Shown here: piece after piece, positions 15,833 through 54,592 of the stretch
How the letters are laid out: the number at the start of each line of letters is the position of its first letter
How positions within the stretch are numbered: the stretch's first letter is position 1
Source: a virus
Virus record (IMG/VR): IMGVR_UViG_3300031963_014654
Location: 1 to 64,000 of that record
Direction: 5' to 3' (one strand)
Length of the DNA: 64,000 bases
The notes under the pieces: model-generated
The model's database searches: none
The model's input: the letters and a program-made list of their open reading frames with translations, nothing else
What the model was told of the DNA's origin: nothing
Position numbers and translations under genes: made by a program

Positions 15833-18800
15833 CTATTTCATTTTACGTTCATATTCCAAAATATCCTCCATGCTTAACCATTCGGGCTTTTTATTATCTG
15901 GTAACTGATTCCACAATTTTTTCATTTCGGCTATTTGTCCCTCTACATTGCCTGCCCACAAATGCTTTACATGCTTGCTTTTGCCTTCGTTGCCTAAATA
16001 ATAATCATTATCTGCCCTTAGCCTATCAAGCATTCTATAATTGTATTTATAGTCATTTACAGATCCGCCTTGCTCCATTTTATCCAATTCTAAAATACGA
16101 ATACGTTGTGATTGTGCTGCAGCTTTTGCTTTAGCAATTTTCACTTTTCGGGTGCGGTTATCATCCGTTAGTTTTTGTTCCTTTTTAAAGTTTACGGTAT
16201 CTGTTAATTTTGCATAATCGCGGTTTTGTGGGATTTTTTCGCCACCATGCTCCATTACTTGTCCTGACATACCATCCACAAGAATCCATCCATTCACCAT
16301 TTTTTTAATTTGGTCGAATGCGGTATGGCCTGCATCAAATACTTCCTGCACTACATCCATTGGAACAAAACGCCCTGTACGTTTGTAACGATCAAGAACT
16401 CGCATTTCGCTTACTTCGCGTGGAACATCAATGTAAATAATAAATATTTCGTATCCTACTGATTTTAACTTATCAATAAGCTCGTAGTATTTTTTTGCTT
16501 TATTCATTGTACCATCGTAAATAGTATCGAATTTACATTTGCCTCCAATATCATCAATTAATTCATCAACAATATCTTTTGTTTCGTGATGTGTTGCCGA
16601 AGCATTCCATCCTTTGTACTCTGGCAATTTTGCTCTAACTTCATCGGCATCAACATGGAAAATGTTTTTGCTCAATAAATATGGTGCATAATTTTTAAGG
16701 AAATGCGATTTTCCCGAACCTGGTGCACCACCTGTAAGTATTGCAATTGGTTTATCTTGCTTAATGCATGTTGCATTTTGCTTGAATGCCTCTCTTATTT
16801 TTGCATGTAGCTTTTTACGTTCGGCTGTATATTCGCCATCCTTATCCACATTTTGTTCTTTTGTTTGTGGTTGAGCATTAATACAAACGGTTAAGTGCTC
16901 TATTGCTTCTTTGTCAATTCTGCGTTCGCCTTTTTCATCCAATGGAGGGCAAGCCATTGCAATTGGCTCTTGTTTTTTCGATTTTTTAACTTTATCGTCA
17001 AGCAAATAATTTAATCGCTCAAATTCTTTTGCACGGCCAATTGCTCCAACAGATTCAACTTTATTTGCAGCACGCTCTGCAGCAATATAATCGGCTCTTA
17101 ATTTAATGTTTTCTTCGCTTGTTATTTTTGCTTTTGATTCATCCAGCTCTTTAATTCTATCGTTTAAAGAATCTTTGTATAAAGGAAGTTTTTCAATTGT
17201 TAATCCGTTTGGTTTTAAATATTCTTTTTCGGCTTTTAATAAAGTTCTGTTTGCAAGCACCAATTTATCTTGATAATAAGGCTTTCCTGCTGGTGATTTA
17301 TCGGAATAAACAACACCTTCTTTGTTTGAACGGTTGTATGTGTATTCCATTTTTTTACCTTCAGCATCCAATTGTGTTTTAACTACACCGTTTGCCAATC
17401 CAAGCAAAGTAGCAAAACTACGTGTTTCGCCCTCTTTTTTAGGTCGGTATTCATCTACATATTTATCAAAATCATTAAAATATGCTTCGAATGTTTCTTT
17501 TGCCTCAATTATTTTATCGATGTTAGATTGTTCGTTTTTTAATCCACGAATATCATCATCAATTTTTTCTTTGTCCTCAATAAGTTGCAATTCGGCCAAT
17601 ACCATTGGATCGGAAATAAGTGCCGATTTGATTTCGGAAGGGTTAAATTCCTGCAAATTAAATGTGTTGCTTTCTCCATTGCTATCCCAAATTTCGGCAA
17701 TACGTGCTGTTTTTTCGGATAATTTTTGGAAGATAAAAATATCCATACTATCCTCCATTAATGGAGTAGCTATACGAACGCTATTGTATAGGTTTCCTTG
17801 CCTCCAAATACGGCCTTCCAATTGTTTTACATCTGTTGGATTCCAATCCACAAAACAGTTGTATAAAACAGTTGAATGCTTTTGTAGGTTTATTCCTTCT
17901 TTAATTGTACTTGAACCAATTACAATTTTCATGCGTTCGGCATCTGAAATATCGTATAATTCGCCCGATTTTGCATCGTATGCTTCGCCCAAAAATGCCA
18001 TTTTTACTTTTTCCTTTGCATCTTTACCTCCTGGCATTTGTGATTTTATAATTCCAACTTCATGCTCCTTATATCCTACTTCTTTAATTAAGTATTCCTT
18101 AATTAATCCAAAATATTCAACTCCGCGGTCCATGTAAATTACTTGTCCGGAAACAGGAGTATTGTTTTTTTCGTGGTATTTTTTTACCGAACGAATACAC
18201 TCAATTACATATTGTAATTTAGGTGATGTTTCGATATAATCAATATAGTTTGGTTTGCCTAATCCTGCACATTCGTATAAGTATGGGCTTAATGCTAAGT
18301 TACGAGCATAACTCATTGCACGCAATGTTCTTACGCCTGCTTTTTCATCATCATTTAAGGTAGATTCATCTAACTCAACGCCTGCAGTAGCATCAACCAT
18401 ATCTTCATCATCCGAATCATCGGCTGTTTTTTTATCGGATAAATGGCTTGTTCCACAAATAGCTGATAATTCAATTTTAGATTCGGCATAAGCCTTAATA
18501 TCGTCCATTAATGCTCTTTGTTGGGCACTAAGTGGTAATATTGTATCTACGCGTTCTGATTCCGACAATTTAATTAACTCACCATCAATTAATTTTGACT
18601 TGTATGGAAGCACGTATTTGTTTGGGCGTGGTACACGAACCATTTCGCCTGTTTTGTAGTTTACAAATCGGCTAATTAACTGTTGTAACGATTGCAAGTT
18701 GTTAAATCCTAAAACAACTTGTTTTCTTTCTGGACGCAATTTTGCATTAATAACCAACTCGTTTGTTGCATGAACGTATGTATCAAAAAACGATTTTAGG

Positions 18801-21800
18801 TTGTTTAATCCTGATTCGCGTAGTTTACCATAAGCAATAAATGTAAGCACGCTGAAAATTTCTAGCGGACTATTTGTGAATGGCGTAGCTGTTAATGTAA
18901 GTACGTTACGGTTATTGTTGTTTTTAAGGATGTACTGACTAATCATAAATCCTTTTAATGCAATGCTTGATGGTGCTCCACCTGCTTGTATTTGATACGG
19001 ATTTTTTTCGCGATCCTCGCCATTTGATTTCATTTCACCTTTAACGCCAACAAACAACTTTTTCATTTTGTGAGCTTCGTCATAACAAGCAAAATCAAAT
19101 CCAAGGTCCTCAATATTGATTAAAGTACCTCTTAATCCTCGTCCAATAAGTGTTTGTAATCGTTCGTAGAACGATGCTTCGCGTTTTTGCCCTGATTTGG
19201 ATGAATAATCAACCGCCTTATCTGGATTTTGATCCAAAATATCATACATTTCGGCAACAATTTGATTTGCTGTGTTTTCGCTAAATCCAATTTGCTCAAA
19301 TCCTTCGTATGTTAATACGGAAATAGAGTTTTCGGGAAGCATTTCAATGTTTCCATCTGCATCTTTTAATTCCGATAAATAATCTTTGCTTAAATTGTAA
19401 AGATCATTAAATTTTACATCTGGGAACAATCCTTTACCTTCTGCCAAAAATTGCTTGTACACTTGGTTTGGCACAACAATAAATGGTCGCTTGCAATAGC
19501 CTGCATCCATAAATTGCTTTATAGCAAATAATGCGCTCCATGTTTTACCAACTCCTACATCGTAGGCAAGGCATCCGCTACCTTCATTCATTAAAAATGT
19601 TACGGCTTCGCGTTTTTCGGGGCGAATATCTACTACTGAATTGCGGTATTCTTTTGCATGTGCAAATGCTACAGGAATTTTATTGTAATTAACAGGCAAA
19701 TAACCGTTAAAACGCTCATTCCAGGTTGTTTCAATTTTTACAATATCCTCTACATTTAACCATTCAGCTAAGAAAATAGAAAATAATCGATCGCCTTCTT
19801 CTTTTGTAATGTTTAATTTACGTTGCCAAATTGCTTCTGCTTCCTTTTTGTCGACTGGCGTACCATCTTTACCTAATGATGGTCGCTGACCTTGCTGTAC
19901 GTAAATTTTAATAATTTCGGCATAGTTTGTATCTTTTTTAATTTGATACTCACCACGGTAATTTACAAGCCAATATTGGAATGCTTCGGTTAATGATAAT
20001 TGACTGAACTTTGTTTTTTTCCAATCGCTCATGTGCCCAACATATAAAAAATCGGGCCTACCTGGTTGTTTTCCACCTGCAGGTTGCGATTTCATTTTAA
20101 ATTCTTTACCATCTACCAATGTTTCAATCATAAATGTATTGGCAAACTTACTAATTGGAAGCAATTTTAAACGGTTGTCGAAATTTGCATTGGTAAGTGT
20201 TAATCGCTTATCGTAGCTTATTTTAAACACATTATCCAAAACTAACTTTTGGTTTTCAAAAACTTGATTTCCATACAATTCAATTATGGTTGATTTATCG
20301 TTTTCAAGTGCCGATTTTTTCTCCCAAATGTTCCCTGACAAATATAAATATGCTGGAATTAATGATCCACGGAAATGGAAAACTAAGCCATTGTTAATCC
20401 AATCTGTTAATGGGCTTGCTCCCATTTGCCATCCGCTTAATTGGTACCATTTATTTGAAAGACGCTCGCCAATTGCTTCCTTATACCAAACAAATACTTG
20501 TAATTCATCTTTTGATATTTCGGGATTGTTTTGGGCAAATACTTGCTCAAATGTAACCATATCGGCATCCAATACAGGATTGCTTGCAACAATTCGTGTA
20601 ACGGCTTTTGTATGTTTTTTAATTTCGCGAATAATTGTTTCTTTGCGTGTCCCTTCCAACGAAGTTTCAATATTTTGCTGTGCTTGTGGATCCTGTAAAA
20701 GTTGGTTTACAGTTTCGTTTTCAGTTGATATTGTTGGATTTTCGGATGCATTAATTTGCATAAAATTTAATGGAGCATCAATACGATTAACGCTATCAAT
20801 TTTACCACGGTATTTTGTAACTTCGCCAAAACGCCCACTTGTTTTGTATGGCTCGCCAAGTACTTTATCTGGATTTTGAGCAAACCAATTATCGTTTACA
20901 AGTAAGTTTAATGTATTGGGCTGCTTTGCTTCGCCTGCAGCAACTAATTCCATTGGAGTGTTAAAAAAGTCCTCAATAGGATCGGTTGTAGTATCTGAAA
21001 TTAAAATAAATTTACCATCACCGTATTGATAATATTGTTCCGGAGTAGAAATTCCTTTATAAACTTCAACTTGCTTTCCAAGCATGTTTGAATACCATGC
21101 TTTTGGATTAGCTTCTTTTATCCAAACTTTAAATTTCTCAATTGGCACCCATTTTTCTACTTCTGGCTCTAGTGCTTTTGGCAACTCTGCTGCATTCTCT
21201 GCAAATTCAAAACTATCGGATGTGTTTTTACCATACTTTTTGGCACGTGCATCAAATAAAACAGAATCGGGATGTTCTGCAATATAATCATCTACAATTT
21301 TATCAAAATCGGTTTGCCAACGATCATCAAACGAAGTATAGATTGATTGTTCTACTCCTGGTGCAATTGGCTTCATTGAAGATTGTGGAACAGGTGTATT
21401 GTATCCTTTAAGCACCAAAATATATGGGCTGTATGTTAATGTGGTGCCACGTGGCGAACGCTTTCCTTTTGGAATAAATGTTACGCTTAATGCTTTTTCG
21501 TATTGAGCATATTTTTTTGCTTTGATTTTTATATCAGTAACATCTATTTTGTTTATATTTCCCATAAACTCGCTTGCCAAATACATTGTAGCTGGACCGG
21601 TATATGAAAATTCCATTGGAAGTATTGGTGCGGTTGGTTTTGTTTCTGGCGTTTCTTTTTTTAATATCATGCCATCAATCGGGTTTATTTCCATCCAAAC
21701 ATCCGATACTGAATTAGCGGTTTCTTCGTTTATAACGCTTATTATTAAATCTACTCCACCATCCGTTCTATCTATTATAGATTCTTTTATGCCCATATCG

Positions 21801-24211
21801 GCAATATCTCTAAATAGTTCAATCTTATTTTTAGGGAAAACAAATTTTCTATAATAACGATTATCTCCATCCCATTTTTGCCAAAGATCAAGTTCGTGTA
21901 AGTTATCTATAAAATCCGATTTTTGTTTTTTTGGTGCTTCTGTCATGTTTTTATCTGCTTCTTTTGTTTCAACAATAGTTGGTTGTTCTTCCAAGTATTG
22001 CCAAATTTGGTGATTATTGGTAAATGCAGGCTTTGTTAATTGTTCGGCTTGTATTCTTTTTAAGTCCAATAAAACTTTTTGTATAACAGGATTATTCAAT
22101 GAATACGCCTCTTTTTTTATTTTGTTTAAAAAACTTGACTTAAATAAATTTATATCCCATCCTTCGGTTGTTCCTTTTTCGTTTTTGCTTTTTTGCAAAG
22201 AAAGAATGAACATAAAATCCTTTTTTAATTTTTTATATAATTCGCTTCCTTCTATATTCGACAATAGTTCGGATTGCTTTTGCTCTTTTTCGGCATTTCT
22301 TTTTTCCATAACCGCACTATTCATAATCGACAATTTTGCAGCAATTGCTTTTTCTAATGCTTTTTCATCATCGCTTTTAGGTGATTCAATATCCATGTTT
22401 GAATATTTTTTCTTTTTTAAAGCAATTAAATCATCCAATGGCATGTTATCATAATCCATTTTTTGTTCGGGCTGCTTTAATCCAAATTCCGCCAAATATG
22501 TTTCGGATATTTTGCCAGGAAATCTATCAGCATAAATCAAAAATAGCCTAATTACCTCTTTTCTTTTTTCTGTGTTTGTGCCCGATATATTATTTGCTAT
22601 CTGGTTTAAAACATGCCTTTCTCTAAATATATCCCCTTTCCAATTATCGTGTGGATCAATTTTATCCAATATTGCTTGGTCGAAATCCTGGCTTGTGTTT
22701 GGTTCAATTGTAATTGTGCTATTAGCATTTTTGTTAATCAATGCAAGGTCCTGTGTATCTATTTTACTTGTAATATAGGTATCGTACATTTCTTGGAACG
22801 ATGGTTTATCACCAAAAAGGCTTTCGTTTTGGTTATCAATTGCGCTTTGGTTATATGCATCAATTGAACTTTTGAATTTATTTCTACCTGCAGCAAGCAA
22901 TCGGTTCATAATTAGCACGTTTTTTTCGGGTGCTTCATCAAACATGTTGCCTTGTACAATGTAATCTTTAAAATCAAGTCCACTATCGTGTATCTTTTTT
23001 TCCAATAAGAATGCTTTGTTCAACAAATCAATTAATGAATTTTCGGCCAATGAAGCATTTTTTGCTAATACCGGTAAACTTGTAATTACAATTGTTTTAA
23101 ATTGCCTTCCGCCTGCCATGCTACCTGCAATTAATGCATCTTTTGACAAAATCATTCCTGCAAGCAAATTTTCAATTAAATCTTTTCCATTTTCGGTAAA
23201 TCCACGTTCATCAAAATATGCTGCAAGCTCATTTTTTGTAATTATATTACATGAAATAAGCATATCGCGTAGTTTTACCTGGTCGGAATAACTTGCATAA
23301 AATTGGGAGAATGTTTCGTATTCACCAACAAGCTCTGCAATCATATTTTTGCAGCCCTCGTTTTCATTCAGCATTTTACCAATTTTAATTGCTTTGTCAA
23401 TTGGGCGTTCGCTTTTTTTGGTTTCCTTGTTATACTTACTCAATTCGGTTGTATTGTACTCTTGGAAATCGTAATCTATACGAACTAAAATTGGATGGTC
23501 GAATGTTTTTGTTTCGCTATTTATTCCTGTAAAAGTGTATTTATATTCATAACTTTTACTTCCTGCAGAAACATCTACCTTTTTAATTCCAAATGCAAAA
23601 ACTTCTTCCACTAAAAAATTGCAATAATCTCTATATTCCTTTGGGAAATCGGTAATTGCTCTTTTTATGCTCATTGTACGGTTATTTCCAGATACAACAA
23701 TTCCATCTTTTGTAATTATTGGTGTTCCTGATGGTGTGCGGCTTGTGCTCACCAAAATATTTGGATCAAGGTTTTGTGCTACTTCAATAACTTTTGCTTG
23801 TGCATTTTTATCATCGGCATAGTTGCGATCGTTTATGTTTTCGCCATTTATTGTTGGATAGCCAATGGTAGTTACAAACGAATGTTCGTTATGGGATGCA
23901 AGAATATTATCGGCATTTACAATTGCAAATTGTGCTTGCCTTTTTTCGCCATTTGGCATTGATATTTCTATTTTGCGTCCGTAAACAATTGGCGTTTCCA
24001 AAAACAATGATCGGTATCCAATATTTACCGAATCGGTAATTTTGCCACCTTCCTTAAATGTGTGTTGGATATGCACTTGTTTGTGCCCTTGGTTGATTAA
24101 TGCTTGCTTTGTATGCAATGCAATTTCCTTGTCATGTGTTTTGTCAAATGATTTAAGTTCGTTGCTGGACTTATCCACATACATTATTTCATAAATTTCG
24201 GGATATTCCAT
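15833..24211 (-). CDS. giant polyvalent protein: DdrB/ParB-like + SF2 helicase + zeta-toxin-like kinase
   Basis: This gene encodes 2,792 residues. About 60-210 match a DdrB-type ParB-like domain (SRTPSGTPIITKDGIVVSGN, NRTMSIKRA). About 1,530-2,150 form an SF2/SNF2-like helicase with Walker A YDVGVGKTWSA, DEAH box FACYDEAHKMKK and motif VI QLEGRIWRQGN. About 2,485-2,640 form a zeta-toxin/polynucleotide-kinase-like fold with Walker A LTGGAPGSGKSHFL and VDADEVRAKLPEYKG. The final ~60 residues carry KMEQGGSV. Such large polyvalent proteins are known from phages and conjugative elements and are thought to enter with the DNA or protect it. The partner methyltransferase lies two genes upstream. Whether the kinase domain is a toxin or a nucleic-acid kinase is open. 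Confidence 0.85.
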   Translation of the reverse strand: MEYPEIYEIMYVDKSSNELKSFDKTHDKEIALHTKQALINQGHKQVHIQHTFKEGGKITDSVNIGYRSLFLETPIVYGRKIEISMPNGEKRQAQFAIVNADNILASHNEHSFVTTIGYPTINGENINDRNYADDKNAQAKVIEVAQNLDPNILVSTSRTPSGTPIITKDGIVVSGNNRTMSIKRAITDFPKEYRDYCNFLVEEVFAFGIKKVDVSAGSKSYEYKYTFTGINSETKTFDHPILVRIDYDFQEYNTTELSKYNKETKKSERPIDKAIKIGKMLNENEGCKNMIAELVGEYETFSQFYASYSDQVKLRDMLISCNIITKNELAAYFDERGFTENGKDLIENLLAGMILSKDALIAGSMAGGRQFKTIVITSLPVLAKNASLAENSLIDLLNKAFLLEKKIHDSGLDFKDYIVQGNMFDEAPEKNVLIMNRLLAAGRNKFKSSIDAYNQSAIDNQNESLFGDKPSFQEMYDTYITSKIDTQDLALINKNANSTITIEPNTSQDFDQAILDKIDPHDNWKGDIFRERHVLNQIANNISGTNTEKRKEVIRLFLIYADRFPGKISETYLAEFGLKQPEQKMDYDNMPLDDLIALKKKKYSNMDIESPKSDDEKALEKAIAAKLSIMNSAVMEKRNAEKEQKQSELLSNIEGSELYKKLKKDFMFILSLQKSKNEKGTTEGWDINLFKSSFLNKIKKEAYSLNNPVIQKVLLDLKRIQAEQLTKPAFTNNHQIWQYLEEQPTIVETKEADKNMTEAPKKQKSDFIDNLHELDLWQKWDGDNRYYRKFVFPKNKIELFRDIADMGIKESIIDRTDGGVDLIISVINEETANSVSDVWMEINPIDGMILKKETPETKPTAPILPMEFSYTGPATMYLASEFMGNINKIDVTDIKIKAKKYAQYEKALSVTFIPKGKRSPRGTTLTYSPYILVLKGYNTPVPQSSMKPIAPGVEQSIYTSFDDRWQTDFDKIVDDYIAEHPDSVLFDARAKKYGKNTSDSFEFAENAAELPKALEPEVEKWVPIEKFKVWIKEANPKAWYSNMLGKQVEVYKGISTPEQYYQYGDGKFILISDTTTDPIEDFFNTPMELVAAGEAKQPNTLNLLVNDNWFAQNPDKVLGEPYKTSGRFGEVTKYRGKIDSVNRIDAPLNFMQINASENPTISTENETVNQLLQDPQAQQNIETSLEGTRKETIIREIKKHTKAVTRIVASNPVLDADMVTFEQVFAQNNPEISKDELQVFVWYKEAIGERLSNKWYQLSGWQMGASPLTDWINNGLVFHFRGSLIPAYLYLSGNIWEKKSALENDKSTIIELYGNQVFENQKLVLDNVFKISYDKRLTLTNANFDNRLKLLPISKFANTFMIETLVDGKEFKMKSQPAGGKQPGRPDFLYVGHMSDWKKTKFSQLSLTEAFQYWLVNYRGEYQIKKDTNYAEIIKIYVQQGQRPSLGKDGTPVDKKEAEAIWQRKLNITKEEGDRLFSIFLAEWLNVEDIVKIETTWNERFNGYLPVNYNKIPVAFAHAKEYRNSVVDIRPEKREAVTFLMNEGSGCLAYDVGVGKTWSALFAIKQFMDAGYCKRPFIVVPNQVYKQFLAEGKGLFPDVKFNDLYNLSKDYLSELKDADGNIEMLPENSISVLTYEGFEQIGFSENTANQIVAEMYDILDQNPDKAVDYSSKSGQKREASFYERLQTLIGRGLRGTLINIEDLGFDFACYDEAHKMKKLFVGVKGEMKSNGEDREKNPYQIQAGGAPSSIALKGFMISQYILKNNNNRNVLTLTATPFTNSPLEIFSVLTFIAYGKLRESGLNNLKSFFDTYVHATNELVINAKLRPERKQVVLGFNNLQSLQQLISRFVNYKTGEMVRVPRPNKYVLPYKSKLIDGELIKLSESERVDTILPLSAQQRALMDDIKAYAESKIELSAICGTSHLSDKKTADDSDDEDMVDATAGVELDESTLNDDEKAGVRTLRAMSYARNLALSPYLYECAGLGKPNYIDYIETSPKLQYVIECIRSVKKYHEKNNTPVSGQVIYMDRGVEYFGLIKEYLIKEVGYKEHEVGIIKSQMPGGKDAKEKVKMAFLGEAYDAKSGELYDISDAERMKIVIGSSTIKEGINLQKHSTVLYNCFVDWNPTDVKQLEGRIWRQGNLYNSVRIATPLMEDSMDIFIFQKLSEKTARIAEIWDSNGESNTFNLQEFNPSEIKSALISDPMVLAELQLIEDKEKIDDDIRGLKNEQSNIDKIIEAKETFEAYFNDFDKYVDEYRPKKEGETRSFATLLGLANGVVKTQLDAEGKKMEYTYNRSNKEGVVYSDKSPAGKPYYQDKLVLANRTLLKAEKEYLKPNGLTIEKLPLYKDSLNDRIKELDESKAKITSEENIKLRADYIAAERAANKVESVGAIGRAKEFERLNYLLDDKVKKSKKQEPIAMACPPLDEKGERRIDKEAIEHLTVCINAQPQTKEQNVDKDGEYTAERKKLHAKIREAFKQNATCIKQDKPIAILTGGAPGSGKSHFLKNYAPYLLSKNIFHVDADEVRAKLPEYKGWNASATHHETKDIVDELIDDIGGKCKFDTIYDGTMNKAKKYYELIDKLKSVGYEIFIIYIDVPREVSEMRVLDRYKRTGRFVPMDVVQEVFDAGHTAFDQIKKMVNGWILVDGMSGQVMEHGGEKIPQNRDYAKLTDTVNFKKEQKLTDDNRTRKVKIAKAKAAAQSQRIRILELDKMEQGGSVNDYKYNYRMLDRLRADNDYYLGNEGKSKHVKHLWAGNVEGQIAEMKKLWNQLPDNKKPEWLSMEDILEYERKMK

Positions 24212-24437: not shown

Positions 24438-26300
24438 TTATTTTCTTTTAAATACAAGAATATCACTTAATACATCGGTACGGTCAAAAACTCCATTTGG
24501 TAATCGGTAAGCATCTACTAAATCGGCTTTATCGGCAATCATTTGCTTAATTTTGCTGTTCCCTTGCTGTAAAAATGGTGTGCCTCCATTTGCAACTTCG
24601 GTTCCAATAATGTAAATTAATAATCCGTTTGGCAAAGTTAAGTCTAATCCGCGTAAAATAAAATATTCTATCCAATTTTTTGCGTTTGTATATTGTTTTT
24701 CGCCCATTCCCATTCCTAATCCAGAAACATCGCCATAAGGAGGATTTCCAATTACAAGGTCGAATTTTTGAATATCCGACAACTTATTTTTAACGGTATC
24801 GCGGTTTTTAATAAAAATATTTTCGAATGGCTGCAAATAAAAGTTGAATTGAGGATACAATATTTTACAAATAGTATAGCTGTATTTGTTTATTTCATAA
24901 CCTGTAGCCATGCTTTGAGTTGGAACATATTTTAAAAATTCGCCTGTTCCTACGCTTGGCTCCAAAACAGATTGCCCATCTTTAAATCCAAACTTATAAG
25001 CCAATGCCCACATTTTGCGAATAATTGCATCTGGTGTATAAAATTCTGTTAATGCTTTTTTAGCTTCTTCTATTGAGCCAAATTCTTCTACATCAATACC
25101 ACCGTAACCGGAGTATTCGCGCAAAAATTGTTTTTCTGAAAACAGGTAATTGTTTGGATCATCACCTTTTTGGTCAATTAATTGCTCAATTTCTTTGTTT
25201 TTTTGATAATCGCTTTTTTGTGGTTCGGATTTAACTGAACCATATTTACCATCCTGCGATTTATCGTTTTTAGGAAATTTCATGCGTTTGTTGATTGATC
25301 CACCGCGAGCCATATAATTATTCCCATTTATTGCAAGTCCTTTATATCCACCGTTAAAAATTGTATCTATTTTGGAGTTGATTCCAAAATTGTCTTTTAA
25401 GTATTTTTCTATTTCATAGTATCCTGTTCCAGATTTTGTAAATACGAATAGCCTTCCTGTCGGGCTGGAATATTGTTTTTCTTCATCAATTCTATATATT
25501 TTATCTTTAAATTGGCTATAAAGCTCTGCTTTTATTTCATCAAAATAATCATATAAAATTGAGCCTTTTTCAATAACATGCCCACCAATTAAACCACCAC
25601 GTGCCATTTCATCAAATTCCAAATCAACATTGTTAAGTTTAATTTCGCCACCATGCTCCATTTTATCGGTTTGTTCGCCTGCACAACCGCAATCTAATGG
25701 TTTTCCATTACCATCGCGTTGGTTAATTTCAGATAATTCATGGCAATATTCTTTGCTATTTTCGGCATTAATTACCACTTCACCACCTTCGGCTTCGGCT
25801 ACCGGTTTATTATTTACAACAATTTCGATTCCGCCATTATCGTGGCTTGGACCTTTTAATACGGTTCCATCTTTTAACTCCTGGATTGGTCCACCTTGCT
25901 TTAACACACCCATTTCTAATTTACGGTAATAATCGGGTGTTTCTTGAATATGATCGGCTGCAATGTATTTTGCTGCTTTGGTTGTGGATGGTAATTCGGT
26001 TTGTATTTTTTTGATTGTGGCTTTATGCTCCAATTCGGTTTGGCCACCTTCATTTATTTTTTTGATTAAATAATCGATGTATTTTTTTTCGGCTTTTGAT
26101 ACAAATGTAAATCGATGCCCAGAATGATCGTAAATAACGTATGGCTTTTGTTTATACGAATCCAATTGCTTTACATCAATAAGTTTTTTAACGAGAATAA
26201 CATCATCAATCATTTCTTTTTTGGTGATTAATTTTTCTTCGTAAATAACCTTGTTACGCAATGCTGCAGGAAGTGAATTAGCTTTTTTGTAGTCAATCAT
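24438..26300 (-). CDS. polyvalent protein with C-terminal N6-adenine DNA methyltransferase domain
   Basis: This gene encodes 620 residues. About 390-620 form a type I/Eco57I-like N6-methyltransferase, with the SAM loop VLEPSVGTGEFL and catalytic motif VIGNPPYGDVSG. About 130-205 contain a phage-type segment, TVLKGPSHDNGGIEI and EAEGGEVVINAE. Six xxGGx motifs dot the N-terminal half (GG at about 85, 136, 172, 217, 235, 333). In many elements this methyltransferase is fused to a helicase like the one in the 15833-24211 product; here the two are separate neighbouring genes. Likely role: methylation of viral DNA against restriction. Confidence 0.82.
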   Translation of the reverse strand: MIDYKKANSLPAALRNKVIYEEKLITKKEMIDDVILVKKLIDVKQLDSYKQKPYVIYDHSGHRFTFVSKAEKKYIDYLIKKINEGGQTELEHKATIKKIQTELPSTTKAAKYIAADHIQETPDYYRKLEMGVLKQGGPIQELKDGTVLKGPSHDNGGIEIVVNNKPVAEAEGGEVVINAENSKEYCHELSEINQRDGNGKPLDCGCAGEQTDKMEHGGEIKLNNVDLEFDEMARGGLIGGHVIEKGSILYDYFDEIKAELYSQFKDKIYRIDEEKQYSSPTGRLFVFTKSGTGYYEIEKYLKDNFGINSKIDTIFNGGYKGLAINGNNYMARGGSINKRMKFPKNDKSQDGKYGSVKSEPQKSDYQKNKEIEQLIDQKGDDPNNYLFSEKQFLREYSGYGGIDVEEFGSIEEAKKALTEFYTPDAIIRKMWALAYKFGFKDGQSVLEPSVGTGEFLKYVPTQSMATGYEINKYSYTICKILYPQFNFYLQPFENIFIKNRDTVKNKLSDIQKFDLVIGNPPYGDVSGLGMGMGEKQYTNAKNWIEYFILRGLDLTLPNGLLIYIIGTEVANGGTPFLQQGNSKIKQMIADKADLVDAYRLPNGVFDRTDVLSDILVFKRK

Positions 26301-29904: not shown

Positions 29905-31107
29905 TTATTTTTTTGGGTTTTCCAAAACTTTAGGAAAAATATCTACTAATAAATCGGTATTTGTATGCCAAGTGTATAGTTGTTGGACCGCTAAATTTGC
30001 TCCTTCCGCCATCTTTTTACGTGCTCCTTCATTGCTGATCATAAACTCTATTTTTGCAATCCAATCGTCTGGATTGTTGTTGCATTTTACTGCAGGTATT
30101 TTACCTGGTGCATATATTGTTTCGCCTTGTTTTGCAATAATATCGGTATATGGTTTTACATTACTTACAATGGCAGGAATACCCAATTGCGCATATTGCA
30201 ATAGTTTGTGATGACTTTTGCATCGGTTAAATTCATTGTCGAGCAATGGCATTAATACAAAATCTAATCGCAAATTTGCTAATGTTTTGAAATATTGCTG
30301 AATGCCTACTGTTTTTACATGCTTAAATTTTACGCCTTGGAGTGCATTTACTTTGGCTTTTACTCCATCCCAACCAAATAGCACAAATTCTACTTTATCG
30401 GAATGCTTTTTAAGTATTTCCAACATTACTTTGCGCATTGGAGCAAGGTCCAAAAATTGTGTTGGGTTAAGTTGCATTCCTATTTGTAGCTTTTGCGGCT
30501 TTGGTTCTGTAATTTTTACACCATCGGCAACATAATAATCGTTGCTCATAAGATTTGGAAGGAATTGAAATTGTGGCAATTCATAACCATTTTGGGTTAA
30601 AAGGTTTGCATAATAATCAATAAGCTCCACGCTTGGGCTGGTAACAATATCAACTGCTGCTAGGTTTATTAGTAATTGTGATCGTCTTTTTTCGGCTGCT
30701 TGTGCATTTTCGCCATGCATTGAAATATGATAATTATCATCTATATGCATTCCAAACTTTAGGTTTGGCTTTTTGTTTGTTTCTTTTATGGCTTTAATAT
30801 CGGCTGGTAAATCATGGAATGATGTATTGAACATGATGTAATCGGCCCACATAAGGATTGAATCGTTTATTTGAACATCGAATCCGTTGGATTGCTTTTG
30901 CGGAGTAGGTTCCTCTATTTGGTTTACAATTGCTTGGTGAGTGCTCGTTTTGTTTAATTCCATGGCAGGAATGATGCTTGAATACAAGCCTGTTCCATTG
31001 GCATAACATGCAATGAATAATACATGCACTTTTGATGGATCGGGATTAAGTACTTGTGCGTAACGGATTGCGTAATCCTCGTTTTGTAGGTTGAAAATTT
31101 GGTTCAT
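29905..31107 (-). CDS. GT-B glycosyltransferase (GT4-like)
   Basis: This gene encodes 400 residues with a two-Rossmann GT-B layout. The N-terminal half has VHVLFIACYANGTGLYSSII. The C-terminal half has KLQIGMQLNPTQF, HKLLQYAQLGIPAIVSNV and PYTDIIAKQGETIYAPG, the pattern of the nucleotide-sugar-binding region of GT4 enzymes. It would transfer a sugar from an activated donor to a glycan. First of a group of about nine sugar-transfer genes. The donor and acceptor cannot be read from the sequence. Confidence 0.78.
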   Translation of the reverse strand: MNQIFNLQNEDYAIRYAQVLNPDPSKVHVLFIACYANGTGLYSSIIPAMELNKTSTHQAIVNQIEEPTPQKQSNGFDVQINDSILMWADYIMFNTSFHDLPADIKAIKETNKKPNLKFGMHIDDNYHISMHGENAQAAEKRRSQLLINLAAVDIVTSPSVELIDYYANLLTQNGYELPQFQFLPNLMSNDYYVADGVKITEPKPQKLQIGMQLNPTQFLDLAPMRKVMLEILKKHSDKVEFVLFGWDGVKAKVNALQGVKFKHVKTVGIQQYFKTLANLRLDFVLMPLLDNEFNRCKSHHKLLQYAQLGIPAIVSNVKPYTDIIAKQGETIYAPGKIPAVKCNNNPDDWIAKIEFMISNEGARKKMAEGANLAVQQLYTWHTNTDLLVDIFPKVLENPKK

Positions 31108-32347: not shown

Positions 32348-33187
32348 CTAAATTTTAATCCAATCTGCAGGAATTAAATCCTGTGTATTGTAATGGTTTA
32401 ATTGTGGTCCGAACCATTGGTTTGGTGCAATTGTGATTCCGTATTGGTTATCAAAAAACATGTTTTTGGCAAGCCATGCAGCCCACCAACTAAAACTACT
32501 GTTTGCAATAATGTGGCTTTTGCATTGGGCCATTAAAAACAAATCCACAATATCGGAGTTTCCAGATACAAAATGGAGCTTGCAAATATCGTCCGGAACG
32601 GTTATGTTTTGTTTGCACCATTCAATATCATCTGAAAATACAATAAAATTAACCATTGACTTTACAGGAAATTCAAAATCTTTATAACTTAATAGTTTTA
32701 TGATTGCTCTATTGTAATAATCGGTTTCGGATAATGGTGGATGGCAATCTGGCTTTTGCAAATAATCGCCTCTACGAACATGAATTGCTACGGTATTTTG
32801 TAAATTCAAAAATTCGGCTCCTGCATTTCGAACAACACGCAAAAATTCGTTTTTTGGCATAAAGTGCCTGATAATCAAATCTTTGTTTTGAACAAAATAC
32901 TTTTCTGACTGAAAAAAGCCATGCAAAATTGCATTTTTTTCCAATGGTAATGGTTTGTATTCGAATTGCAGGGCAAGTAATGGGTTATGCATTATGCCAT
33001 TAAATTTGCAATCGTATGTTGTATCCAAATTATCATCAATTGGATTGATAAAGTATTTATTGTATTCCCATGTGGTAAATTGGGCTGCATCGTTTACATT
33101 GGCTGCATGTGATAATGTAGCTGCAATTTGAAACAATTGATTGCCTAACCTACCGGTATTTGGTGGATCAATTTTAAATATTACCAT
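32348..33187 (-). CDS. alpha-1,2-fucosyltransferase-like (GT11)
   Basis: The start at 33187 (MVIFKIDPP) is used because a longer frame would overlap the upstream gene by 137 bp. The product has 279 residues. GRLGNQLFQIAA near the N-terminus, VAIHVRRGDYL in the middle, FIVFSDDIEWCK and ANSSFSWWAAWL near the C-terminus are the ordered motifs of GT11. It would transfer fucose from GDP-fucose, commonly to galactose. Fucosylated glycans on Bacteroidetes surfaces or on the virion are possible targets. Confidence 0.85.
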   Translation of the reverse strand: MVIFKIDPPNTGRLGNQLFQIAATLSHAANVNDAAQFTTWEYNKYFINPIDDNLDTTYDCKFNGIMHNPLLALQFEYKPLPLEKNAILHGFFQSEKYFVQNKDLIIRHFMPKNEFLRVVRNAGAEFLNLQNTVAIHVRRGDYLQKPDCHPPLSETDYYNRAIIKLLSYKDFEFPVKSMVNFIVFSDDIEWCKQNITVPDDICKLHFVSGNSDIVDLFLMAQCKSHIIANSSFSWWAAWLAKNMFFDNQYGITIAPNQWFGPQLNHYNTQDLIPADWIKI

Positions 33188-33497
33188 CGTAACCTGCTTT
33201 TGGTGGTGTATTATCTGATACTTCTTTTTGGATGTTTTCGGGATTACCGATAATGGTATTTCCTTCCTGGTCGATAATTTTCCAACCTGCAATTGCACAA
33301 AAACGTGCAAAGTCGCGTGCGCTCATTCCACCATAACCTTTAATTAGGGATGAAATTTTGTCGGCACGAAGGTGCATTTTTTTTAAATGTGGCTCGCGTG
33401 GTTTGTTTTTTATAAAAAATTCGGATACAAACTTTAGAATATCAAATTGCTTAAATATTGGTAGTTTTTCTTCTGGTTTAATTGGCTGTGTGCTCAT
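33174..33497 (-). CDS. putative DNA-binding or regulatory protein
   Basis: This gene encodes 107 residues. A helical basic section (about 40-75, RADKISSLIKGYGGMSARDF) resembles a helix-turn-helix, followed by GWKIIDQEGNTIIGNPENI. The pattern is reminiscent of the small repressor-like phage proteins, but no firm family. Confidence 0.5.
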   Translation of the reverse strand: MSTQPIKPEEKLPIFKQFDILKFVSEFFIKNKPREPHLKKMHLRADKISSLIKGYGGMSARDFARFCAIAGWKIIDQEGNTIIGNPENIQKEVSDNTPPKAGYDGNI

Positions 33498-36078: not shown

Positions 36079-36563
36079 TTATAATAAAACTACTTTCCCT
36101 AGATTGCTATCTATTAATGATTGTACGTTGTTTTTACCGTATGCAATTAATACGCTTGGTGCTCCTGCAGAACCTTTTTTTATTCCATCAACTGTGTAAA
36201 ATTGGATTCTTTTTTCAATAAAACAAATAGCATTTGCACTATTCCATACATGATCAAAAAACATTTTTGTTTCTGTTCTGGCAAATACAAGTGCAATTGC
36301 GTTTCCATGTTCGGCACATTTACGAAGCCATAAGTGCGTTTTTTTACCGTATGGAGGATTGCACCAAACACGCTGCCCCCCCCCCCCCAATTTTGCTGCA
36401 ATCCATCGTCATTAATGGTAAAGTGTGTGGTTGCTGTATCCCATGGCCGATTAATTGGAGCGCATGGATCTAAATCAAATTTACCAAGTTTATGTACTAA
36501 TGAAGGTGGTGTAAGCCATTCTTCTTTATAGTTTACTATATTGCGTTCGAATTGTACATCCAT
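36079..36563 (-). pseudogene. phage-type Dam N6-adenine methyltransferase, interrupted by a poly-G run (phase-variable or frameshifted)
   Basis: Two overlapping frames together give one intact phage DNA N-6-adenine methyltransferase. The first (start 36563) has KEEWLTPPSLVHKL and GKFDLDPCAPINRPWDT. The second has VWCNPPYGKKTHLWLRKC, ALVFARTETKMF and KGSAGAPSVLIAYG. NPPY is the catalytic motif. The junction is 13 consecutive G on the coding strand. With 13 the frame shifts and stops; with 11 or 14 the frames join as W-G(n)-Q-R-V-W-C-N-P-P-Y. This is the layout of a slipped-strand on/off switch. A sequencing miscount of the run is the alternative. If on, it would methylate adenines in viral or host DNA. 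Confidence 0.82.
36376..36388. repeat. homopolymer of 13 C (G on coding strand)
   Basis: Thirteen C in an AT-rich genome, inside the Dam gene upstream of its NPPY motif. No comparable G/C homopolymer was noticed elsewhere in the window, so it is unlikely to be chance drift. Confidence 0.9.
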
Positions 36564-37324
36564 TATATTACATCAATAAGTTTATTACTATTTTTAATTT
36601 CATTAAAGCAATCAACTACATGCTGTTTGCCTTTTATATATTCAGCTCCAAATTGGTTTACTTTATTGTAGCTGCTTAACCGGTTGGCATATTGTTCGTG
36701 TTTTTGGATAAGGTAATCGATTCCAATGTATTTGTAATGCAGGAGCTTTAAATGTTCGCTGCGGTATGATAAGTTACGTTTGTATTGTTCTTTTATTACA
36801 GGATTGCAATAGTGTGCTCCTGGTCCATAGTTTATTTCTTCCAACATTTTTGGTTGAAACAGAATTGATTTATCAAAGTTTGGAGCACGAACGCCTTTAG
36901 TAATTAATGTTGTTAAATTGGCAATGTATTTATCTGGGAATGTTTCTGAAAACATATTATAGCCGTATGGCATAATTATAGGGCATGACGATCCAAGTGT
37001 TATTAAAAAATCGATTATGCCAAATCCAGAATAGTTATAATGCAGCAACTCATCCATATCACAAACAATTACCCAATCGGCTTTGGATTGTTTCCAGCAA
37101 TTGTTTTTAATGTATGTATAGGCTGAATCGTTTAATTGATTGTTGGAATCGTATTGAACTATTTTTACACGTTCGGAAAATTCGTTTTTGATAATTGAAA
37201 TGGTATTATCGGTGCTGTAATTATCGATTATAGTTACTTTGCTGCAAAAGTTTAAATAATGGGCCAATGTGTAACGAATAAGTTTTTCTTCGTTGTAACA
37301 CAATATAAATGCTTCTATTTTCAT
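36563..37324 (-). CDS. GT2/GT92-like glycosyltransferase
   Basis: This gene encodes 253 residues. AFILCYNEEKLIRYTLAHYL begins the GT-A fold. VTIIDNYSTDNT and WVIVCDMDELLH (with the D-x-D-type metal site) follow. The C-terminal part has GPGAHYCNP and HLKLLHYKYIG, as in GT2/GT92-like enzymes. It would use a nucleotide sugar and metal. Its last base is shared with the Dam gene start region, so both are in one transcript. Confidence 0.8.
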   Translation of the reverse strand: MKIEAFILCYNEEKLIRYTLAHYLNFCSKVTIIDNYSTDNTISIIKNEFSERVKIVQYDSNNQLNDSAYTYIKNNCWKQSKADWVIVCDMDELLHYNYSGFGIIDFLITLGSSCPIIMPYGYNMFSETFPDKYIANLTTLITKGVRAPNFDKSILFQPKMLEEINYGPGAHYCNPVIKEQYKRNLSYRSEHLKLLHYKYIGIDYLIQKHEQYANRLSSYNKVNQFGAEYIKGKQHVVDCFNEIKNSNKLIDVI

Positions 37325-38324: not shown

Positions 38325-38942
38325 TTATTTAATTTTCCAAATATAATCATGTTCGGTTAATTGTTCAACTTTTTTATGTGTTTTTTTCAACAATTGTTCA
38401 ATTTCGGCTTGGTTGTATTGTTCCTCTATGCAAATATGGTTTACACGGTGGCGCATTGTTTCGAATCCTTTTAATGCTTGTGGTTCGTATCCTTCCACAT
38501 CTAAGCTCAATAAATCTATTTGTTGATTAATTGGCAAATAATGGAAAATAAGTGTGTCTAATTTAATTGAATAGCAAATTTGCTTAACTCCTGGTTCGCC
38601 TGCTTTTTTTAAATGATCGCTTTCGGTATTTATTCCGGCAACGGTGCTCATTAATCCATTGCATTCGGGAGTATGAATTAATTCTATTTTTTGATTATCG
38701 TGCTCACCAAGGGCTTTGTTTACAATAATTGTGTTGTGATGCCTATTGCGTACACATGCTTGAAACTGTTCGAATATTGGTTCTACCAAAATACCGGTCC
38801 ATTGCATTTGTTGTTCAAAAAATGCGGTATTTGATTGTGTTAAACCATCGTTTGCGCCTGCTTCGATAAAAAAGCCTTTTTTAATTCCATCAAAATACTT
38901 TTGGCGGAGTAATTTATCAATATTGTTTATGGAGTGGTACAT
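38325..38942 (-). CDS. FkbM-family methyltransferase
   Basis: This gene encodes 205 residues. GFFIEAGANDGLTQSNTAFF is the SAM-binding start. GILVEPIFEQFQAC and DLLSLDVEGYEPQALKG are the hallmark FkbM motifs. It would O-methylate a sugar or similar group using S-adenosylmethionine. Its place among glycosyltransferases points to methyl-capped glycans. Confidence 0.86.
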   Translation of the reverse strand: MYHSINNIDKLLRQKYFDGIKKGFFIEAGANDGLTQSNTAFFEQQMQWTGILVEPIFEQFQACVRNRHHNTIIVNKALGEHDNQKIELIHTPECNGLMSTVAGINTESDHLKKAGEPGVKQICYSIKLDTLIFHYLPINQQIDLLSLDVEGYEPQALKGFETMRHRVNHICIEEQYNQAEIEQLLKKTHKKVEQLTEHDYIWKIK

Positions 38943-43470: not shown

Positions 43471-44018
43471 TCTATTTGGTCGGGTTGCTTAAATTCCTTC
43501 CAATTGAAGTCTTTTTTTGTTTTTGTTTTGTGGCAAGGCTTGCACAATGGCTTGAAATTTCCTAACCAACAACCACCACCGCCATGCTTAACAGGTATAA
43601 TGTGATCTATATCTTCCCAATCATTTTCGTTGCATTCGCAACACTTGCTTCCGTAATATGTATGAAGAAGAACTTTTGCCTCTTTTGTTCCGTAAGCAAT
43701 TATTGAATAAACACGGTATGCAAAGTTTTTACAATTTTGGTCGGCCCAACTAAATTTTGCTTTTTGTCCGCAACCACAACGGCAATCGCCATTATCGTTT
43801 TTTGGAAACAGAGCTTCTATTGTTAATTTGCCTTGGTTTCTTCTGTATGGATTAATTAAATGGCTTATTCGTTGATATATTTCTGTGGGATTAAAGAATA
43901 TTAATCGCAATCGATTATTCCAATATCCCATTCTTAAAGAATCTTCCAAAAACCATTCGGGAGCACTAATTTCCTTTTGTGGTAATGGCTTTATTGTTTC
44001 CGCATTTATTTCCATCAA
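43452..44018 (-). CDS. HNH endonuclease domain protein
   Basis: This gene encodes 188 residues. The N-terminal part contains a CRCGCGQKAKF zinc-type motif. The C-terminal HNH core has SKCCECNENDWEDIDHIIPV, then GGGGCWLGNFKPLCKPCHKTK. The D-H and N and H ligands are intact. It would cut DNA. A homing or host-degradation role is possible. Its start overlaps the glycosyltransferase upstream by 4 bp. Confidence 0.83.
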   Translation of the reverse strand: MMEINAETIKPLPQKEISAPEWFLEDSLRMGYWNNRLRLIFFNPTEIYQRISHLINPYRRNQGKLTIEALFPKNDNGDCRCGCGQKAKFSWADQNCKNFAYRVYSIIAYGTKEAKVLLHTYYGSKCCECNENDWEDIDHIIPVKHGGGGCWLGNFKPLCKPCHKTKTKKDFNWKEFKQPDQIDLFIKK

Positions 44019-44911
44019 TGAAACGCCCTTTCCAACAAAAATGGTGTTAATTGTGCTTCAAACTCCTTTTTTAGCTGTTTCATGGCTTTGGTGATAGCAA
44101 ATGGATGGCAACCTGTGAAACGTGTTGTATAGCAATCGCCACGTGCATCTGGTGTAAATTCGTGTACGCCTTGGTATTTTTGTTCTATTGATTGCTTTTG
44201 CTCTGCATTACCTGTTACCCATGGTAAATATACGCTATTGAAATAATCGGGGATGCATTTGCCTGGTGAAATTACTGCCCCCTCGTAATATTGTACTTTT
44301 TCGAATACTTGTCGCGGAAACGTGTAACTGTAATGATACATGTAAATTCCTTGTGCGGCCAATTGCTCGCTCGATAAGTGTTTTTTGTCTACTCCTGCAG
44401 GTAATTCCATTGTTGGTGGACGATGGTTTATCCATTGTGCGCCCCAATATGGATATTTGCGGATACGAATAAATTCGTGATCATGGTCGAAGCCGGTTAA
44501 ATAATGCTCAAATCCACCATAAAAACTGTATGCTTTAAATCCAACGCTGGTTGGTTTTTCGGTTTCGAGTAGTTTAATTGTTGATTGAATATCGGCTGCT
44601 TTAAAAACTTCATCGGCATCAATATTCCAGATGTAATCGGTATCGGCTTCTACATGCTGCATGTATGCATTGGCTTGCTCGGTTTTTTCCAAGTATGTGC
44701 CATGTACAATTTTGATTTTTTTCTGTGGATCGGGAAAGTTTTTGAGTATTTGGTTTGTACGGTCCAACGATGTGGTGAATCCTTTATCTTTCCAATATGT
44801 AACACAACCTTCGGAAATAAGGATTTGGTTCATGTATGGATAAATGCTTTCCAATACTTGTTGTAATACAAAATCGGAATTAAAAACGATTATTCCTGCT
44901 GCTATTTTCAT
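44015..44911 (-). CDS. GT2-type glycosyltransferase
   Basis: This gene encodes 298 residues. AAGIIVFNSDFVLQQVLESI starts the GT-A fold and YIWNIDADEVF is the DxD metal site, followed by SVGFKAYSFYGGFEHYLTGF. It belongs to the GT2-like sugar-transferases in this operon. Donor and acceptor are unknown. Confidence 0.8.
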   Translation of the reverse strand: MKIAAGIIVFNSDFVLQQVLESIYPYMNQILISEGCVTYWKDKGFTTSLDRTNQILKNFPDPQKKIKIVHGTYLEKTEQANAYMQHVEADTDYIWNIDADEVFKAADIQSTIKLLETEKPTSVGFKAYSFYGGFEHYLTGFDHDHEFIRIRKYPYWGAQWINHRPPTMELPAGVDKKHLSSEQLAAQGIYMYHYSYTFPRQVFEKVQYYEGAVISPGKCIPDYFNSVYLPWVTGNAEQKQSIEQKYQGVHEFTPDARGDCYTTRFTGCHPFAITKAMKQLKKEFEAQLTPFLLERAFH

Positions 44912-51588: not shown

Positions 51589-52323
51589 TTATTTTTGTTT
51601 ATAGGTTTGAATTAATTGATTGATTTTTTCGGTATAATTTTTTGTATTGAAATGACTATTTGCATGAATGCGGTGGTCCACTAACTTTTGGTTTATGTTA
51701 GTGAATTTAGCATCGGTATAACGCATAATGCGTAGCCATAAATCATAATCTTCTATTCCATCAAGTTCGGGATTGTATGGAAATTGTTCCATTAAATTGG
51801 CACGAATAAGTGCGCTGCAATTTACAATTGGGTTGTGGCCATTGTAGGCATCTTCTACTATTTTATCGTGCAAAAATGGGCGTGGGCGTGGATTTATTTC
51901 TATTTCTTTGCTTTGTGCATCAATATAATAACAATCGGTACCAATAACATCGTATGCATTGGCGTATTTTAATTGTTCTTCCAGCTTTGTTGGATGCCAT
52001 ACATCATCTGCATCTTGGATTGCAAACCATTGTGCTTTTGGAAGCGAATATAAATTTTCTGAATATTGTAGTAGCAAATTAGATATAAAATTTAATGCAT
52101 CTGATTTATTATCACAAGTTCCCATTGTAAAATCTTTAATTTTACCTGGATTATTTAAACGATATTCATCAACAATTTTTTGAGTATTGTCGGTGCATCC
52201 GTTTAACGCAACAATAAGATTAAAATTTTGGTGGGTTTGGTTTAGAACGCTTTCAATAGCTTGCCTAATGTAGCGTTCGCCATTACGAACCGCTAAAAGC
52301 ACATATACATGATTATTTCCCAT
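51589..52323 (-). CDS. GT2-family glycosyltransferase
   Basis: Start at 52323 (MGNNHVYVLL) used; a longer frame adds 17 residues without conserved features. The product has 244 residues. VYVLLAVRNGERYIRQAIES, then ALNGCTDNTQKI, WFAIQDADDVWHPTKLEEQL (DxDD metal site), and EDYDLWLRIM are typical of GT2. It would transfer a sugar from a nucleotide donor. The acceptor is unknown. Confidence 0.87.
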   Translation of the reverse strand: MGNNHVYVLLAVRNGERYIRQAIESVLNQTHQNFNLIVALNGCTDNTQKIVDEYRLNNPGKIKDFTMGTCDNKSDALNFISNLLLQYSENLYSLPKAQWFAIQDADDVWHPTKLEEQLKYANAYDVIGTDCYYIDAQSKEIEINPRPRPFLHDKIVEDAYNGHNPIVNCSALIRANLMEQFPYNPELDGIEDYDLWLRIMRYTDAKFTNINQKLVDHRIHANSHFNTKNYTEKINQLIQTYKQK

Positions 52324-52408
52324 TTTTTGTTTGTAAATTTTAGGCAATATTAAACCTTTATTTGTAATATGCAAACTTTATTTTAATTTACTTATTAACA
52401 ATTAAATG

Positions 52409-53197
52409 TTAATTACGGTAATAATTGGTTCCTTTTGCTGCTTTATCTTTATCTACAAATATAATTTTGGGCGTAAATGGTGGTTCTATTGCCCAACGCT
52501 GTTTAATGTATTCTTGGTTTTCCATCCAAAGTTCGTACATGTATGGGTTAAGTTTACCAGGTTCGTGCTCGCAATAATGGTAGGTTGGTGGTAGAATTTT
52601 CACCAAAGGTTCATTATTACACACAAATTTATTAATTGCTGATTCATCGTGCCAAATTGGTGTAATTCCAGCAAATTTATCGTTTTGAATGTATAAAAAC
52701 ATTAATGCGCACATAGCTTTAAAATTATACGTTTGACCTCCATAAAATCCGCCTCCTACATAGATTGTTGGCTTGTGAGCAAAGCATGATGAATTGGCGT
52801 TTGTTTCGAATGGTGCTGCATCTGTTCTGTTTATGTATGCGCCATGTGCAACACAAACAATATGGTGCTTACATATTAAAGGAGTGATTTCGGAAGCAAA
52901 ATAAGCATCGGCATCTATTGCAAAACAATGTGTAAATTTTTCGTAGTGATTAAAATCGGAAAGGTATTTTGAATAAAAATACGAACGCCACATGGATGCT
53001 TCTGGGAATGGCTTATGCTCTACTTCGATGTATTCAATATCTCTTTTTGTTTCGGGCAAAGGTGTTGCTATATCGGAAACAAATATAACGTAAACAACTT
53101 CCTGCTGTGGCAAAAAATATTGATCGGCCGATTCGATTAATTTTGGAAGAAACTCGGTGTATTTGCCGGTTGCTGTAATAAATAGTGCTATTTTCAT
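52409..53197 (-). CDS. GT6-family (ABO-like) glycosyltransferase
   Basis: This gene encodes 262 residues. HCFAIDADAYFASE is the DxD site, YVGGGFYGGQTYNF the acceptor loop, ITPIWHDESAINKF the WHDES motif. This ordered set is that of GT6, the histo-blood-group ABO family, which transfers galactose or N-acetylgalactosamine in alpha linkage. A few bacteria and phages have such a gene. A possible product is an ABO-like cap on the virus or host glycan. Confidence 0.85.
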   Translation of the reverse strand: MKIALFITATGKYTEFLPKLIESADQYFLPQQEVVYVIFVSDIATPLPETKRDIEYIEVEHKPFPEASMWRSYFYSKYLSDFNHYEKFTHCFAIDADAYFASEITPLICKHHIVCVAHGAYINRTDAAPFETNANSSCFAHKPTIYVGGGFYGGQTYNFKAMCALMFLYIQNDKFAGITPIWHDESAINKFVCNNEPLVKILPPTYHYCEHEPGKLNPYMYELWMENQEYIKQRWAIEPPFTPKIIFVDKDKAAKGTNYYRN

Positions 53198-53754
53198 TTT
53201 ATTAAAGAAAGTGTTTTTGGTATTCCGTTTTTAAAAAAGAATGTAGTAGTCCAACCTGTATAAGTAAATCCGTATTTGTCGGGTTCGTGTTGGTATGTTT
53301 CTATTCGTTGAAAACTATTCATTAAATTTTTTCCTGGTGCATAATACTCGCGTTCGGAATTATCCAATATTAAAACTCCATTTTTGGCTAAATATGGCAA
53401 TGCGGATTGAATACATGCTGCACGATTGCGCCCATCTACCAAAATAATATCGTATTTATCCCCAATTTTAGCTGCTTCGGCAATAGCATCGTGGTAAGAT
53501 TGCTCCCTGCGCATTAACATACCATCTTGAGGCTTTGCTAAAAAACTTTTAGCTTGTTTGGTAATCTCATCCCACCATTGTGTATCGTGCTCCACAGAAT
53601 GCAGCACTTTTACATTTTTTTGCTTTAAAAACCAAATGGTGCTTGCTCCCATTCCGTATTCGAAAATACGCAAATCTTTGCCATTATCAATTATTTTTTG
53701 AAGTATTCGATTAGCTTCTTCGGTAAGCCATGGTTCGGTGCGTAGTTGGTCCAT
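53194..53754 (-). CDS. class I SAM-dependent methyltransferase
   Basis: This gene encodes 186 residues. RIFEYGMGASTIWFLKQKNV is motif I, HSVEHDTQWW motif II, YDIILVDGRNRAACIQSALP motif IV region and LILDNSE motif V. The start is inside the end of the integrase gene, in another frame (44-bp overlap). Substrate unknown; next to a GT6 gene. Confidence 0.8.
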   Translation of the reverse strand: MDQLRTEPWLTEEANRILQKIIDNGKDLRIFEYGMGASTIWFLKQKNVKVLHSVEHDTQWWDEITKQAKSFLAKPQDGMLMRREQSYHDAIAEAAKIGDKYDIILVDGRNRAACIQSALPYLAKNGVLILDNSEREYYAPGKNLMNSFQRIETYQHEPDKYGFTYTGWTTTFFFKNGIPKTLSLIK

Positions 53755-54592
53755 TTGAGTTTAAATTTATATGTGATATTGGAGTTTGTATTTTGCTAAT
53801 TGTATTGTGGCTCAAATGTAAGTAAATATTTGTTGTTTTTACATTGTTGTGCCCTAATAATCGTTGTATTAAATTAATATCTGTACCATATTCTACCATG
53901 TGCGTAGCACTTGTGTGGCGAATAAGGTGAGCATATATTCGCTTATTGCAAATTCCGGCTTTATCGGCCAATTGTTTTAAAACTTGGTTTACGCTGCTTT
54001 CGGTATATTGAATATCAAATTGGCCATTTAACACATACGTTTGGGATTTGTATTGATAATAATATGTTTCCAACAATTTTATTAAATCGGGATCAAGTGG
54101 AACTTGCCTATCTTTTTTGCCTTTTGCTTGAATGATATTTATTATCATTCTACTACGATCAATGTGTTGCCATTTAAGGTTTATTAATTCGGAAACACGT
54201 AAGCTGCAGGAGTAAAGTAGCGATAATATTACTTTGTGCTTTAGGTTTGCACATACATCAAACATTTTTTGTATTTCCTGTACCGACAAAACGATTGGTA
54301 ATTTTTTGTCTTTTTTAGAAAAAGGAATTTTTTCTAATTTAATGGGCATTCCAACTGTTATTGAATAAAAGGATTTTATTGCACATAGTTTATGGTTACG
54401 TGTATTTATTGTTGGAAACGTTAATAGCCATTCTTTAATTTTTTGCGTTGAAATTGCTTTTGGCTCTGTTTCGCTGCTAAAATATTTTAAGAATGTTCCA
54501 ACCGAACACAAATAGTTTTCTTGCGTTCGCTCACTTGGATATTTTAACTTACAATCTGTCGAATATTTATCATACCATTTTCGAAATTCCAT
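53711..54592 (-). CDS. tyrosine recombinase (XerC/D-like)
   Basis: This gene encodes 293 residues. An N-terminal SAM-like core-binding domain (about 5-85) is followed by the catalytic domain: YSCSLRVSELINLKW (first Arg), HLIRHTSATHMVEYG (H-x-x-R), LLGHNNVKTTNIYLHLS (His and Tyr nucleophile). The extra integron-integrase insert was not seen. It has an AAGGAGGT Shine-Dalgarno, unlike other genes here. It abuts three methyltransferase genes with attC-like spacers, and its last ~15 codons run over the next gene. It is the likely mover of that array. Confidence 0.9.
   Translation of the reverse strand: MEFRKWYDKYSTDCKLKYPSERTQENYLCSVGTFLKYFSSETEPKAISTQKIKEWLLTFPTINTRNHKLCAIKSFYSITVGMPIKLEKIPFSKKDKKLPIVLSVQEIQKMFDVCANLKHKVILSLLYSCSLRVSELINLKWQHIDRSRMIINIIQAKGKKDRQVPLDPDLIKLLETYYYQYKSQTYVLNGQFDIQYTESSVNQVLKQLADKAGICNKRIYAHLIRHTSATHMVEYGTDINLIQRLLGHNNVKTTNIYLHLSHNTISKIQTPISHINLNSNGPTTHRTMAYRRS

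Follow-up and report, generated by a model that had tools for sequence, protein, structure and literature searches.

Does a DNA adenine methyltransferase gene that is broken by a run of 13 G in a viral genome represent a decayed gene, an assembly error, or a switch that turns the enzyme on and off? We addressed this question for a 64,000-nucleotide stretch of viral DNA (positions 1 to 64,000 of IMG/VR record IMGVR_UViG_3300031963_014654), which we refer to as the window. A first-pass annotation made from the sequence alone had proposed that the gene is phase variable, that tract lengths of 11 or 14 restore the frame, and that the virus would thereby hedge against restriction or methyl-dependent nucleases. 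The locus comprises the following features:

36079..36563, - strand, Dam-family (PF05869, phrog_111) DNA adenine methyltransferase gene, from the ATG at 36563 to the stop ending at 36079, split into two frames by the tract
36389..36563, - strand, upstream half, from the start codon to the T of the conserved W59 codon (TPP, FDLDPC, and DGL motifs)
36376..36388, - strand, run of 13 G, the putative switch
36079..36375, - strand, downstream half, from RVW-C-NPPYG to the stop codon
36349..36360, - strand, catalytic NPPY codons, out of frame in the assembled allele
36180..36563, - strand, assembled out-of-frame ORF of 127 aa, lacking NPPY

The observation is real. The run begins at codon 59 (W, TGG), is exactly 13 bases long, and is followed by CAGCGTGTTTGGTGC and the NPPY codons. 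It is the only G or C run longer than 5 in the window, where about 1e-5 such runs are expected from base composition, and 0 of 100 dinucleotide shuffles gave as many G8 matches. The upstream half matches phrog_111 (1.5e-11), and the downstream half matches phrog_111 (9e-24) and PF05869 (5e-8). Read across the tract with a two-base correction, which equals 11 G, a single 160-aa protein matches PF05869 (3.6e-16; 59.7 bits against a cut-off of 28.1) and phrog_111 (1.8e-40). As assembled, the product diverges right after the tract and never reaches NPPY. In one respect the first-pass annotation needs correction, as 8 G also restores the frame.

The tract lies at a conserved site directly before the catalytic loop. 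The invariant T-P, W, and N-P-P positions are present in the sequence; in 47 aligned genes W59, N68, P69, and P70 are invariant, and most close relatives read W-x-G-R-V-W-C-N-P-P-Y. The tract therefore falls on the x-G of the W-x-G turn, and the window gene would read W-G-G-Q-R with 8 G and W-G-G-G-Q-R with 11 G. A single-sequence structure prediction was uninformative (pLDDT 30), but an alignment-based AlphaFold2 model was confident (mean pLDDT 91) and placed the glycines (residues 60-62) in a loop between the short helix 53-55 and the strand 65-67 that leads into NPPY, a place that should tolerate one glycine more or less. Searching solved structures by sequence gave no match, and Foldseek matches in the PDB were weak (best E 0.02) but mostly SAM methyltransferases, among them T4 Dam and E. 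coli Dam.

We next asked whether the tract recurs, since the first-pass annotation had named its absence from relatives as evidence against a switch. Of 80 viral relatives of the downstream half (37-65% identity), only one has a G run of 5 or more at the site, a G8 that is in frame. Two scans of viral contigs, with the 620-aa methylase-like protein and the polyvalent protein of the virus, found no near relatives of the virus itself. However, a frame-blind scan of IMG/VR for at least 8 G followed within 20 bases by W-x-NPP(Y/F) returned 104 contigs, a scan of bacterial genomes returned 12, and a second scan covered runs of 6-7. After filtering for Dam-like sequence and removing duplicates, 118 genes with at least 7 G at this same junction remained, nearly all in phage contigs; 71 are in frame and 47 are out of frame. 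By run length, the in-frame counts are 11/19 for 7 G, 17/23 for 8, 29/38 for 9, 2/19 for 10, 11/15 for 11, 1/2 for 12, 0/1 for 13 (the window), and 0/1 for 14. Sequences that were not Dam-like or were unreadable upstream were left out of these counts, among them a Bacteroides acidifaciens contig with a G9 tract and unrelated sequence just upstream, within 72 bases of the contig end, which is possibly an assembly break at the tract. The tract-bearing Dam is not an ordinary host gene, as only 1 of 393 Bacteroidales genomes has such a site.

Genes encoding the same W-G-G peptide, but with a first glycine codon other than GGG, served as controls. Of 59 scan hits, 55 are in frame and the other four are not Dam-like; after the same filter 50 of 50 are in frame (Fisher p 2e-9). 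Frame breaks are thus confined to the tract. W-G-G is coded GGG-GGG in 60 of 121 in-frame cases (50%), where the codon use of the contigs themselves predicts 2%, a roughly 24-fold excess; shared ancestry inflates the p-value but not the size of the effect. Background runs of 9 or more G or C occur 3-4 times per Mb in comparable phage DNA. Seven of the tract-bearing stretches hold a second G or C run of 9 or more elsewhere, and other phage genes may be phase variable too.

Tract length differs between near-identical phages. The 118 genes fall into 77 clusters at 80% nucleotide identity, and of the 12 clusters with several members, 10 vary in length and seven hold both reading states. For example, two assemblies (L160 and L166) are 99.9% identical over 13.7 kb, with seven substitutions and two 3-base indels, one of which is G11 against G14. 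Another pair (L130 and L196) differs over 4.8 kb by 82 substitutions and a single indel, one G of the tract, which turns an in-frame gene out of frame. The largest cluster (23 genes) has runs of 8 to 12 on closely similar proteins. We also found apparent stabilised alleles: in one (L233) the run is interrupted by a C (TGGGGCGGGGGG, in frame), and in the other (L125) a G10 is accompanied by an extra A that restores the frame; both are about 93% identical to each other's group.

The same variation is seen in a cultured temperate phage species. LoVEphage, a phage of Bacteroidales, has six deposited genomes of this region, with tracts of G6 (MW660583), G7 (PQ571265), G8 (OY725593 and OY731444), and G9 (OY731433 and PQ571302), plus G9 in B. 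oleiciplenus YIT 12058; only G8 is in frame (W-G-G-R-I-W). This is a different phage and Dam subgroup from the window virus, and its tracts are shorter, yet their position is identical. In the five genomes aligned, the tract is the only indel in the gene, and identity is 96.7-100% over 1 kb. Runs of 6-9 are likely within what short reads call correctly, so sequencing error does not explain these alleles. Several out-of-frame versions were annotated as two methyltransferase genes; if the switch is real, frameshifted phage dam genes should not be dismissed as errors. Three LoVEphage-species phages were induced from B. thetaiotaomicron, P. dorei, and P. vulgatus (PMC12629997); the two LoVEphage papers examined, including this one, mention neither homopolymers nor phase variation.

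Out-of-frame alleles of the large cluster keep low pN/pS in both halves (0.17 upstream, 0.24 downstream), as in-frame alleles do (0.13 and 0.34), so they are recent or revertible rather than old pseudogenes. Taking one allele per cluster, 45 of 77 are in frame, against one third by chance. For runs of 10 or more, however, the in-frame share (14/38) is no better than chance, and long runs look freely drifting. On a FastTree tree of 222 genes, tract presence needs at least 33 changes, although sampling by tract and weak branch support limit the exact number. The window gene sits among tract-free genes, so its tract probably arose separately.

We consider it likely that the run is a contingency locus inside a phage Dam-family methyltransferase gene, which supports the first-pass interpretation. 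When W-G-G is coded TGG GGG GGG, it forms a run of 8 or more G that is inferred to gain or lose G's by slipped-strand mispairing during replication, the simplest cause of differences of one or a few G and one established for polyG tracts in Campylobacter (e.g., PMC4889913). One length in three gives a full enzyme in which only the number of glycines in a loop changes, and the other lengths truncate it before NPPY, presumably with loss of activity. A phage population would then hold genomes with and without an active gene, and virion DNA would be adenine-methylated or not. The window virus is OFF as assembled, but without reads its length of 13 may be off by some bases and mixed populations were not seen directly, and with no close relative of the virus found, the case for this lineage rests on one genome plus the recurrent pattern elsewhere. 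The benefit is likewise inferred: probably escape from restriction when methylated and from methyl-dependent nucleases when not, or, in temperate phages such as LoVEphage, altered methylation of the lysogenised host. It is somewhat more likely than not that phages of many unrelated lineages have repeatedly turned one coding accident, W-G-G next to the catalytic motif of their Dam enzyme, into the same switch, such that methylation is a heritable, randomly flipping trait of virions and a form of phase-variable anti-restriction encoded by viruses.

Other explanations appear less likely. The tract could be a neutral mutational hotspot, in which W-G-G coding makes a G run, slippage breaks a dispensable gene, and broken copies are later lost, so that the variation is real but no switch is selected. 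The chance-level in-frame share of long runs is what such a hotspot would give, and most close relatives of the window gene get by without a tract. Yet the excess of paired GGG codons, the surplus of in-frame alleles per cluster, the low pN/pS of out-of-frame alleles, and the repeated changes of tract state on the tree speak against it, and we regard it as unlikely. An assembly or sequencing error, with a true and fixed length of 11 or 14 in the window, is also unlikely: long G runs are error-prone and a single assembled genome supports the length of 13, but errors do not create 11 extra G's between aligning halves, and length differences recur both in the cultured phages, where the rest of the gene is gap-free, and in the two assemblies that are 99.9% identical. 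Programmed transcriptional or ribosomal slippage, which would make full-length enzyme at a set fraction whatever the length, seems least probable. Homopolymers of eight or more are typical transcriptional slippage sites (PMC3711429) and both halves stay intact when out of frame, but a programmed site should keep one frame relation, whereas here all three occur, often inside one cluster, and known cases are mainly A/T runs.

PolyG tracts that produce phenotypic variants within a phage population are known from Campylobacter phages (Sorensen et al. 2021, Cell Rep 35:109214, as summarised in PMC11868660), where the switched gene encodes a receptor-binding protein in phages of one host genus; here the gene is Dam-family and the tract occurs at one codon position in many unrelated phages. 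Phase-variable methyltransferases are well known in bacteria, including type III Mod phasevarions and the Campylobacter type IIG enzyme Cj0031 with a G9 tract (PMC4889913). Those are host restriction-modification genes, whereas this is a lone Dam-family gene in a virus, with no endonuclease found beside it. Dam proteins of Bacteroides phages B40-8, BT19, and BKO1-TP3 share the family, motifs, and motif order, but BT19 and BKO1-TP3 read W[FI]GRVW at the junction and have no tract. The Campylobacter CJIE1 prophage Dam is not a precedent, as the papers describe homopolymers in other genes and not in dam. Two surveys of gut phage methylation contain neither 'phase variation' nor 'frameshift', and we found no report of a phage methyltransferase switched by a homopolymer or of its recurrence at one codon, although subscription journals were mostly outside the search and this is weak evidence of absence. 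Phage methylation is usually treated as a fixed property of a phage species. If the switch is real, one phage stock is a mixture of modified and unmodified genomes, which would help explain partial methylation, change how restriction and methyl-dependent defences select on phages, and give lysogens a switchable methylome.

The window virus has at least four methyltransferases, only one with a tract; the three others, all on the - strand, are an N6_Mtase/DarB-like protein (24438-26300), a phrog_116 methyltransferase (54683-55543), and a phrog_757 methyltransferase (55671-56372). A tyrosine-recombinase (Phage_integrase) gene (53711-54592, - strand) indicates that the virus may be temperate. The window also encodes a 2792-aa polyvalent protein with ddrB-like ParB, helicase (ResIII, Helicase_C), Zeta toxin, and LPD11 domains (15833-24211, - strand). 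Many glycosyltransferase genes are present on the - strand (29905-31107, 32348-33310, 36563-37324, 44015-44911, and 51589-53197), one of them directly upstream of dam, with a stop that overlaps the dam start codon, together with an FkbM methyltransferase at 38325-38942. Outside the window, a tract-free Dam gene (positions 1501-1983 of the stretch analysed, L303) lies inside the conjugative transfer genes of a Parabacteroides distasonis plasmid, after traK and before traM.
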